DNA of 64,000 nucleotides from Frigoribacterium sp. PhB160 (GTDB taxonomy: Bacteria > Actinomycetota > Actinomycetes > Actinomycetales > Microbacteriaceae). The notes below the pieces were generated by a model, which saw nothing but the letters and a program-made list of their open reading frames with translations, ran no database searches and was not told the DNA's origin. Shown piece by piece: positions 864 through 3,448 of this stretch (position 1 is the first letter of the stretch; the number at the start of each line of letters is the position of its first letter). The translations under genes and the position numbers were made by a program. The stretch lies in NCBI RefSeq assembly GCF_003751785.1, contig NZ_RKIE01000002.1, positions 1-64,000 on the forward strand. Direction: 5' to 3'.

Positions 864-878
864 CGGCAGCGTCAGCGG
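857..878. terminator. Bidirectional hairpin terminator between convergent genes
   Basis: Perfect 9-bp arms CCGCTGACG (857-865) and CGTCAGCGG (870-878) around a 4-nt loop. The hairpin covers the stop codons of both the upstream plus-strand gene (861-863) and the minus-strand reverse transcriptase (872-874), so it can end both transcripts. There is no U-tract, as is common in GC-rich actinobacteria. Confidence 0.6.
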
Positions 879-2245
879 GGCACGCGGGCGAGCAGCTCGC
901 GCAGGCGTGCCCCGCGCGCCGGGTTCAGCTGCTCGACCCACCCGATGCGGCCGAGCACGTGGGCGCGGAAGTCGGGCTCCCCGCCCCGGTCCTGCGCCTC
1001 GAGCCCGGTCGACGCGGCGTTGTGCAGCATCGCCCGCAGCCGGTCGTAGGAGGCGCGGGTCACGTTCGTCCCGGAGTTCACGACGATCCCCGTCACCGTC
1101 TGCCGCGTCGCCGCGCCCCGCACGCGCGTCTTGTGCGGGTTGAGCTCGTGCCCCTCGTCGGCGACGATCCGGCCGACGCCCCGCACGAACGCGTCGGCGC
1201 GGGCGGCGACCTCCTGGCCGCCGCTGAACGACAGGTCGTCGGCGTAGCGGGTGTAGCGGGCGCCCGCGGCGGCGGCCCATCCGGCGAGGCGCGAGTCGAG
1301 CCTCCTCATCGCCAGGTTGGCCAGGGCCGGCGAGGTCGGGGCGCCCTGCGCCAGGTGCGGCACGGCGAGCGCGCGGCGGAGGGCGACCCGCTCGTCGAGC
1401 TCGCCTCCCGGCGGCATCGCCGAGAGCACGGCGGCCGGCACGGCGTTCGTGCAGAGCCCGACGAGCAGGTGCGCGACGGGCTCGGGCAGCCCCTCGCGCC
1501 GGAGCGCCCCGTAGGCCTGCGTCGCCGTGACCCGCGCGAAGAACGAGCGCAGGTCGAGCGCGACGACGACCTCGCTGCCCTGGTGCACCGCCGCGCCCGT
1601 GACGGCGCTGCGACCCGGCACGAAGCCGTGCGCCGCGTCGTGCACGGGCGCCCCCGCCAGCACGCGGTCGAGGACGACGCGCTGCAGGTCGCGCAGCCGG
1701 AACCCGGGCACCTCGAGGAGGCGCGGGGTACGCCCCGGCCTCGCCCGCCACTCGTAGCGGTGGTGCTGCAGCGGGCCGCTCGGGTGCCGTCGGTTCCACA
1801 GCCGCGTGTCCGCGAACCACTCGAGCTCGCCGATCGTCAGGCCGAGCAGGGCGGCGAGGTCACCGACGCCGCGGAGCTCGGGTCGGCCGTCGGGGGCACC
1901 GGCACCGGCATCGTCGGTCTCGGTCCGGCCGGGCGCGACGACGCCGGGGTGGACGACGCGCAGCGCGCGCCGTTCGGTCCGGGCGCGCTCCCGGCCCCGG
2001 CCGAGGGCCCCGCTCCGGTCGACGACGACGGCGAGCAGCCGCGCCTCGTCGCGGGGCGGCCGGGGGAAGCGTCGGAGCACCTCGTGCGCCAGCCCCGGCA
2101 GCCAGCGGGCGTCGACGTCGCCCGGCTCGAGCCCCAGCGCGTCGGAGGCGGCGGTCACGAGACCGGGCTCGGTCCAGTCGGCGTCCGCGACGGCCAGCAG
2201 GGCCAGTGCGAGACCGCGCGCGACGGCGTCGGGCGCTCCGGTCAC
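872..2245 (-). CDS. Retron-type reverse transcriptase (RNA-directed DNA polymerase)
   Basis: 457 residues from a GTG start at 2245, with GAGG about 10 nt upstream. Residues 1-160 are an extension without recognised motif; the RT fold follows. Visible RT motifs are AHGF (205-208) and GRS (211-213), the region-X position reading GAAVH (217-221, where retron RTs usually have NAxxH), motif A DLRSFF (catalytic D231), QGAPTSP (300-306), the catalytic YADD box (334-337), NPHKT (369-373) and the region-Y VTG triplet (384-386). The C-terminus has FRAHVLGRI and QLNPARG, common in bacterial RTs of this branch. VTG plus QGAPTSP points to retron RTs rather than group II intron RTs: there is no maturase or HNH domain. 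Directly upstream lies a candidate msr-msd RNA. An N-terminal extension of this size is also known from myxobacterial retron RTs. It would reverse-transcribe the msd part of its own RNA into branched msDNA; retrons studied elsewhere are anti-phage systems. The exact retron type and effector are not established. Confidence 0.9.
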   Translation of the reverse strand: MTGAPDAVARGLALALLAVADADWTEPGLVTAASDALGLEPGDVDARWLPGLAHEVLRRFPRPPRDEARLLAVVVDRSGALGRGRERARTERRALRVVHPGVVAPGRTETDDAGAGAPDGRPELRGVGDLAALLGLTIGELEWFADTRLWNRRHPSGPLQHHRYEWRARPGRTPRLLEVPGFRLRDLQRVVLDRVLAGAPVHDAAHGFVPGRSAVTGAAVHQGSEVVVALDLRSFFARVTATQAYGALRREGLPEPVAHLLVGLCTNAVPAAVLSAMPPGGELDERVALRRALAVPHLAQGAPTSPALANLAMRRLDSRLAGWAAAAGARYTRYADDLSFSGGQEVAARADAFVRGVGRIVADEGHELNPHKTRVRGAATRQTVTGIVVNSGTNVTRASYDRLRAMLHNAASTGLEAQDRGGEPDFRAHVLGRIGWVEQLNPARGARLRELLARVPR

Positions 2246-2352
2246 GCGGCCGCGACCTCGAGGTCGACGGCGAGCGTGCGAGAGCGGTCGGGGACGAGCC
2301 CCCGGCCGGGTGCGGGCCCGCCGTCGCCGACGAGCGGGCGGGCCGAGGCGGG

Positions 2353-2521
2353 CGTGCGGCGACGGGGTGACGACTCGTGCGTCGGTCCGTGCCGCCCGCC
2401 GCGCGGAGCGCGGTGACCGGCTCGGGGAGCGGTGCCGTGGTCTGACTGCGTGCCCCGGGGTTGCCCCGGAGAGGACGACCTCACGCGGAGGCCGCCCGCC
2501 TCGTCACCCCGTCGTCGCACG
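2353..2521 (-). ncRNA. Candidate retron msr-msd ncRNA with a1/a2 arms
   Basis: On the minus strand, upstream of the reverse transcriptase, two 21-nt arms are inverted complements with one mismatch: arm a1 at 2521 to 2501 and arm a2 at 2373 to 2353. The shared 14-nt core reads CGACGGGGTGACGA. Paired as RNA they form a 6-bp plus 14-bp helix separated by one A-C mismatch, as expected for the a1/a2 helix that closes a retron msr-msd transcript. Inside lie a hairpin with arms CCGGGG/CCCCGG (2455-2469), likely msr, and one with arms CCGCGC/GCGCGG (2399-2413), likely msd. The RNA would be about 169 nt and ends 108 nt before the RT start codon. The priming guanosine could not be assigned. Arms and hairpins are seen directly; the ncRNA identity is inferred from position and architecture. 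Confidence 0.72.
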
Positions 2522-2526
2522 GCCAC

Positions 2527-2532
2527 ACCGTA
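2527..2532 (-). promoter_or_regulatory. Candidate -10 element for the retron ncRNA
   Basis: On the minus strand the hexamer TACGGT lies 5-7 nt before the first base of arm a1, so transcription would begin at or next to the 5' end of the predicted ncRNA. No convincing -35 hexamer is visible 16-18 nt further upstream. The fit between the -10 position and the a1 boundary is the main support. Confidence 0.4.
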
Positions 2533-2635
2533 GCGGCGCCCCGGCCGTGCCCGCCACCCTCGCGGCCCGCCCTCCGCCCCGCGACGGAGGCGTCGTCGGG
2601 CCGGGCACCCGCCCCGCGTCCGCGGAACCGGCGCC

Positions 2636-3448
2636 CTACGTCCGCCCGAGGTACCGCCCCTGCTTGTGGTTGAGCGCGAGCACGAGGTTGAGCACGACCG
2701 CGCCGGCGGCGGAGACGAGCACGACCCAGGGGCTGACGACGGTGAGCGAGACGAGCACGATGACGACGTCGACCACCATCTGCACGTAGCCGGCCCGCCA
2801 GCCGAGCTTCTCCTGCAGGATCAGCGCGAGGATGTTGATGCCGCCGAGGCTCGCCCCGTGGCGGAAGAGGATGAGCAGGCCGACGCCGATCAGCAGGTTT
2901 CCGCCGAGCGTGCCGTAGACCGGGTTGATCTGCCCGATGCCGAGGGCCAACGGGTGCAGGTACGAGAAGGCCGACACCATCGCGACCGTGAGCACGGTGC
3001 GGAGCGTGAAGGCGAGCCCCTTCTTCCACAGCGCGAGCGCGAAGAACGGCACGTTCACGAGCAGGAAGAGCAGCCCGAACGACACGGGCGTCGCGTAGCT
3101 GATCAGCAGCGCGAGGCCGGCGGTGCCGCCCGAGACGGCGCCGCTCTCCTTCAGCAGGAACAGCCCGAAGGAGGCGATGAACACCCCGGTGATCACGCCC
3201 ATCACGTTCTCGGCGAGCGTGTGCCGGTTCGCGTCGGCGGTCGCGGCGACCTCGGTCAGGGCCGGGTCGTCGACGAGCGGGGTCGCCGTGTCGGGCGACA
3301 GCGCGGCGTCGGGCCCGGTCGACCCGGGCGTCGAGTACGTCGGCGTCGAGCCGGTCGGACCGGCGGTGCCGGTCGGGCTGGGGGAGGAGGCGGGCCGGGC
3401 GACAGGGGTGGCGTCGCGCGTGCCGTCGTTCGCGGGGGTGTCGGTCAC
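2636..3448 (-). CDS. YitT/DUF161-family integral membrane protein
   Basis: 270 residues from a GTG start. The first ~75 residues are Pro/Thr/Gly-rich and probably disordered. Five to six hydrophobic segments follow, with the family-typical stretches SGGTAGLALLISY and FRHGASLGGINILALILQ. The usual C-terminal DUF2179 domain of full-length YitT proteins is absent, the protein ending soon after the last membrane segment (HKQGRYLGRT). Substrate and function of the family are not established. It lies upstream of the retron RNA on the same strand (gap 115 nt), so readthrough into the retron is possible. It is more likely a resident chromosomal gene than the retron effector, but a membrane effector cannot be excluded. 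Confidence 0.8.
   Translation of the reverse strand: MTDTPANDGTRDATPVARPASSPSPTGTAGPTGSTPTYSTPGSTGPDAALSPDTATPLVDDPALTEVAATADANRHTLAENVMGVITGVFIASFGLFLLKESGAVSGGTAGLALLISYATPVSFGLLFLLVNVPFFALALWKKGLAFTLRTVLTVAMVSAFSYLHPLALGIGQINPVYGTLGGNLLIGVGLLILFRHGASLGGINILALILQEKLGWRAGYVQMVVDVVIVLVSLTVVSPWVVLVSAAGAVVLNLVLALNHKQGRYLGRT

Follow-up and report, generated by a model that had tools for sequence, protein, structure and literature searches.

A probable retron in Frigoribacterium, consisting of a covarying structured RNA and an N-terminally extended reverse transcriptase

The reverse transcriptase gene and its product

The window, i.e. the whole 64,000-nucleotide stretch that was analysed, opens contig C2 in a 3.3 Mb Frigoribacterium genome. 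A retron reverse transcriptase (RT) gene with a GTG start (872..2245, minus strand; 457 aa) follows a YitT-family gene (2636-3448), and the predicted ncRNA described below lies between the two. At its other end the RT gene is convergent with an ORF of 281 aa (18-863), with 8 nt between the stop codons; no Pfam, NCBIfam or PADLOC match was obtained for this ORF.

An earlier note on this DNA, made from the letters alone, had proposed a complete retron ncRNA-RT pair. The YADD, QGAPTSP and VTG motifs that it assigned to the RT are all present in the 457-residue ORF [872-2245(-)]; they are the QGxP, YADD and VTG-type motifs that characterise retron RTs. The VTG position is variable in distant family members (e.g. 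LTG, LAG, AAG).

The protein was matched by Pfam PF00078 (E = 6.6e-18). The three top NCBIfam matches were retron models (1.7e-44 for a retron model), each scoring below its own cut-off (152 bits against 235 for retron_St85); the RT did not reach the cut-off of any curated NCBIfam retron model among its matches. The Drt2 model (32 bits, 7.1e-8) and the group II intron RT/maturase model (47.6 bits) fell short of their cut-offs of 390 and 300, respectively. The top PADLOC profiles were RT_other (2.1e-164) and RT_outgroup (7e-156), followed by typed retron RTs (e.g. XIII at 1.2e-82). The matches to the first two span residues 7 or 13 to 455, N-terminus included, and both profiles matched all 36 aligned family members at E<=1e-30. 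The RT alignments comprised 36 sequences (A3) and 32 of these same sequences (A6).

A model of the RT was obtained with AlphaFold (mean pLDDT 92, pTM 0.72). The 18 best chains in a Foldseek search of the PDB with this model were all retron RTs, as were the top 14 entries found using VIA-align 2, and in both searches the DRT2 and DRT9 structures ranked under most retrons. Judged by profiles and by structure, the RT thus belongs with the retron RTs, which speaks against a placement outside the retron clade, the outcome that the earlier note had named as refuting its reading.

The model has helices at residues 7-90, before the RT core. In the 14 VIA-align rows the alignment begins between model residues 104 and 125, in one case at 160. 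Since no retron RT in these rows aligns before residue 104, residues 1 to about 105 (1931..2245, minus strand) are taken as an additional all-helical N-terminal domain. No PDB or BFVD fold match was found for it at E<=0.001, nor was any recognised signature, and an effector role for the domain is therefore a guess. It may be a new output domain. Among the relatives, the 830-residue RT of an Amycolatopsis locus (L064:4122-6611) carries a Gly/Ala-rich linker after the N-terminal part and a long Pro/Ser-rich insert in the RT domain before HLPQGAPTSP. In an Acidobacteria-labelled metagenome-assembled genome (MAG; L049) an in-frame stop separates the N-terminal part of the RT from its core, which may reflect real decay or a sequence error.

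Structure, covariation and distribution of the RNA

All features of the RNA lie on the minus strand, upstream of the RT. The 5' arm a1 (2501..2521) and the 3' arm a2 (2353..2373) are 21 nt each and pair with a single A.C mismatch, as was seen in the sequence and by an inverted-repeat search; a2 is placed by fold, covariation and inverted repeat. These coordinates and the mismatch agree with the arms given earlier, and the TACGGT box that had been claimed upstream of the first arm was located at 2527..2532, 5 nt ahead of a1, as a -10-like element. The first base past a1, G2500, is the candidate branching (priming) guanosine. It is followed by msr hairpin 1 (2473..2497; 10 pairs, two of them G.U) and msr hairpin 2 (2453..2471; eight pairs, one G.U), the stem of which is strongly conserved. 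Both hairpins had been described as perfect, which holds only if G.U pairs are allowed. A third, two-step hairpin at 2425-2387, absent from the earlier description, falls within the predicted msd template (2374..2452); the msr/msd border was placed by analogy with known retrons. The ncRNA ends 107 nt before the RT start codon. The fold energy of 2340-2530 is -116.6 kcal/mol (MFE z = -2.99), and none of 200 shuffles reached a value as low. No match for the ncRNA was found in Rfam 15.

In a script scan, arm pairs of quite different sequence and similar spacing were found upstream of many of the related RTs, but not all. Two alignments, A1 (sequence only, 20 rows) and A2 (15 rows), were assembled from loci at which an arm pair had already been seen. 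Compensatory changes occurred in 24 of the 35 predicted pairs of A1. In A2 both sides had changed in 28 of 48 pairs (0/500 shuffles as high), and 114 cells were counted against 34.2 +/- 4.4 after shuffling (0/500). The proportion of paired cells in A2, 96.9%, dropped to 39-48% when the partners were slid by 1-3 columns. By helix, both-side changes affected 14 of the 18 pairs of helix 1 (a1/a2) and covariation seven of the nine pairs of msr hairpin 1; helices 4 and 5 lie in the predicted msd.

Since the rows of A1 and A2 were picked where arms had been seen, arm pairing is favoured in both, and a further alignment (A7) was therefore built from 17 of the 43 loci outside the covariance model described below, among which L012 and L039 had been seen earlier. 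RNAalifold returned the same closing helix and hairpins for A7, with compensatory changes in 20 of 35 pairs. Together with the model search, this answers the row-picking bias in part.

The RT family was found at E<=0.001 in 17 of 99 genomes, the present one included and one (G038) by a weak 66-residue match; none of the 18 RT matches has an inner stop. A search of a genome collection gave 50 RT loci. A covariance model (R1) was built from the 15 sequences of A2; it matches the present genome once and 66 of the 68 sources, some of which are the same locus twice. The two sources without the RNA are L017, a weak match of 66 residues, and L026, which starts 9 nt before the RT match at a contig end. 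Leaving out duplicate loci, the fragment L017 and the contig-edge loci L026 and L048 gave 58 non-redundant loci. R1 matched every one of these at E<=1e-4, including the 43 not used to build it, and RNA and RT share a strand at 57 of them. In the alignment of the 58 sequences fitted to R1 (A5) both sides had changed in 42 of 48 pairs, and the cells of msr hairpin 2 are paired in 99.8% of cases (100% in A2). The arms are thus conserved and covary, the check that had been proposed for them, and a structured ncRNA closed by a1/a2 accompanies the RT at all 58 loci.

Of the 58 sequences, 54 have G directly after a1, so that a guanosine is conserved by position at the end of the arm; in three of the four other rows the letters suggest an alignment shift. 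In the 20 nt that precede the model start, 49 of the 58 loci have a TAnnnT box, which in 27 cases has the offset seen in the window; among letter-shuffled copies of these 20-nt pieces, 363 of 2900 have one. At one locus of the 58, L012, the ncRNA (1287-1446, minus strand) is inverted head to head with the RT (1489-2829, plus strand) and its fold is kept, which suggests that the RNA and the RT can come from separate transcripts.

RNA-bearing loci are labelled as Frigoribacterium, Arthrobacter, Williamsia, Acidobacteria, Planctomycetes and Verrucomicrobia, several of the last being MAGs. Four of five loci from a plasmid collection (two Burkholderia) carry the RNA, whereas 80 phage-borne RT relatives gave no R1 match at E<=0.01 (best 15.7 bits, E 0.92). 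Among 296 Actinomycetota genomes, including the present one, three carry the RT at E<=1e-40. Under strict filters the RNA was found in two of these (in the third by direct search, 41 bits) and in none of the 293 genomes without the RT, a close linkage of RNA and RT. Two records may bear the wrong label. An Acidobacteria-labelled MAG contig (L033) has flanking ORFs common to Arthrobacter and may be mis-binned; further Acidobacteria-labelled loci carry the RNA. The record named Kitasatospora arboriphila (L058) shares its RT flanks with Williamsia muralis loci and is possibly mislabelled or contaminated.

Genomic neighbourhood and inheritance

In the genus, the retron is present in nine of 16 genomes and YitT in all 16. 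A gene that we take, from its own sequence, to be flgE lies downstream of the RT at five Frigoribacterium loci (L019-L022 and L028; distance 127 to 1,519 nt) and in G006, G014 and G010, which are the same genomes as three of those loci. All seven retron-less genomes retain both YitT and flgE, with flgE within 8 kb downstream of YitT. It was not found in the window, perhaps because the contig starts here.

The homologous flanks are about 284 nt apart in the empty genome G007 and about 2040 nt apart in the occupied genome G006. The extra DNA of G006 contains the ncRNA and the RT, which in this one genome pair form the unit of gain or loss. The retron of G006 is bracketed by a palindromic repeat (C2:950344-950403 and 952272-952331; L092), present as two nearly identical direct copies of close to 90 nt. 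Copies related to the repeat are scattered, with ten pattern matches in G006, eight in G000 and none in G007 (<=2 mismatches; reversed control 0). The bracketing copies could promote loss of the retron by recombination.

The YitT and RT trees agree on the main split (G000 and G006 versus the seven others) and on two pairs. The dN/dS of the RT is 0.21-0.41 in five pairs, indicating purifying selection, and its GC3 (0.96) is like that of its neighbours (0.98-0.99). The agreement of the trees, the dN/dS values and the GC3 fit vertical inheritance with losses.

Neighbouring genes were compared at 50 loci (ORFs of at least 90 aa, flanks of up to 5 kb). They formed 145 clusters, 50 of which span at least two genus labels; among the 45 of these that were listed, most belong to one Williamsia-like neighbourhood. 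Seven clusters were inspected closely, and none adjoins the RT in different neighbourhoods; one of them adjoins it in L036, with a Planctomycete-labelled relative 3.2 kb from the RT. In the Williamsia-like set an ORF of 138-139 aa lies 62-74 nt downstream of the RT at seven of ten loci, its cluster has no locus beyond those seven, and one copy (L051:6034-6450) weakly matches the candidate defence profile PDC-M32A (6.8e-6). This ORF is a possible lineage-specific partner. Tripartite retrons of types I-XIII (Mestre 2020) reportedly have a type-specific effector or accessory gene beside or fused to the RT; among the seven clusters inspected (ORFs of at least 90 aa within 5 kb) no such gene recurred beside the RT from one neighbourhood to another, and the best PADLOC profiles are untyped, although a small or unlinked gene may exist.

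Interpretation and comparison with known retrons

The fold covaries, its model finds the RNA at RT loci and the RT resembles retron RTs; for these reasons we regard the ncRNA of about 168 nt and the RT with good confidence as a retron, which bears out the pair as first proposed. The msDNA biochemistry of known retrons (PMC6868368) served as the model for the steps envisaged. Transcription from the TACGGT box would start at about 2521 (minus strand) and yield an RNA of some 168 nt, the ends of which would be closed by a1/a2 pairing. The RT would bind this RNA, probably via the strongly conserved second msr hairpin, and the 2'-OH of G2500 would serve as primer for DNA synthesis. Reverse transcription of the msd (about 2374-2452) would produce a hairpin DNA of about 70-80 nt joined to the msr RNA, and the template RNA would be trimmed. 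Because no effector gene was found next to the RT, the working complex is most likely RT and msDNA alone, its output most likely passing through the N-terminal helical domain or an unlinked host protein. Most likely it acts as a chromosomal resident that senses phage or DNA stress. More tentatively, the family may be a two-component lineage across several phyla, in which the N-terminal domain of the RT replaces the effector or the msDNA has a chromosomal role different from phage-triggered suicide; we consider this possible but would not expect it.

A tripartite retron with its effector elsewhere in the genome, or with a lineage-specific neighbour such as the Williamsia-group ORF, is rather unlikely. 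That ORF, with its place downstream of the RT at seven of ten loci and its PDC-M32A match, would suit such an arrangement, but its cluster is confined to those seven loci, and the flanks in Frigoribacterium are YitT and flagellar genes. It is improbable that the locus is the remnant of a retron that has lost its effector and is now drifting or merely selfish. The failure to find an effector that adjoins the RT in at least two neighbourhoods, the presence in only nine of 16 genus genomes and the in-frame stop in the relative L049 would suit a remnant; dN/dS values of 0.21-0.41 in five RT pairs, a sign of purifying selection, 18 matches free of inner stops in the 99-genome search and an RNA fold kept across phyla argue the other way.

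Two readings would deny the RNA its part as a retron ncRNA. The fold lies upstream of the RT, 107 nt before its start codon, as would a 5' leader that regulates the RT mRNA in cis; a leader should not tolerate the inversion seen at L012, where the fold is kept, and the closing arms and the conserved G that follows a1 suit a priming site, so that this explanation, in place of a template for reverse transcription, is very improbable. We give even less credence to the reading that the enzyme is not a retron RT but a defence-associated one of DRT/UG type whose template RNA is structured. Some DRTs are described as pairing with a neighbouring ncRNA (PMC12039810, PMC12489045), and the Drt2 model does match (7.1e-8); the retron models are far stronger (1.7e-44; PADLOC 2.1e-164), DRT2 and DRT9 rank structurally under most retrons, and the a1/a2 closing helix, the G after a1, the VTG motif and the upstream order are retron features.

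Taken as a retron, the locus differs from those solved with partners, which are effector-bearing defence systems: it represents a lineage under selection for which no neighbouring effector was found, with an RNA recognisable from Actinomycetota to Planctomycetes labels. The covariance model and the natural presence/absence series in one genus make the role of msDNA without an effector gene testable in Gram-positives. As a speculation, the compact, stable RNA may serve as a source of ssDNA in high-GC actinobacteria.

The suggestion that the type may be undescribed stands in part. The best PADLOC models are untyped, but the RT is already catalogued in them (RT_other/RT_outgroup), and N-terminally extended RTs are known in myxobacterial retrons (PMC6868368). 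Putative actinobacterial retrons are also listed in surveys (PMC6868368), and PADLOC msr-msd models exist (PMC9252829). A 2022 review (PMC8867640) mentions some retrons without a clear neighbouring effector and names Delta-, Gamma- and Alphaproteobacteria and Bacteroides as the groups in which retrons were characterised by experiment. The present locus combines a well-supported RNA and a possibly new output domain with an RT that falls inside existing profiles; the RNA, unmatched in Rfam 15, may already figure in published tables. Its distinctive traits are the N-terminal helical domain, the lack of any effector gene found to recur next to the RT, and the gain or loss of ncRNA and RT as a unit in one genome pair.

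The comparison with RT_outgroup/RT_other concerns the RT only: the profile is the same, and these profiles carry no type. Retron-Eco1 (Ec86; PDB entry 7v9x) was solved with a separate effector, whereas none was found beside the window RT, and the 314-residue chain of Ec86 leaves our model unaligned before residue 104. A further likeness, drawn from published descriptions and not from sequence alignment, is to the myxobacterial retrons Mx162, Mx65, Sa163 and Ne144 (PMC6868368), which likewise have an extended RT N-terminus (here helices 7-90 before the RT core) and a first arm that ends at the priming G. The msd of Mx162 is 162 nt, compared with about 75-80 nt predicted here, and the context of the G is CAGC in Mx162 and Sa163 (PMC6868368) as opposed to GAGG, GAGA or AAGC in the present family. 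For Mx162 and Sa163 vertical inheritance is reported (PMC6868368), as also fits the Frigoribacterium retron.
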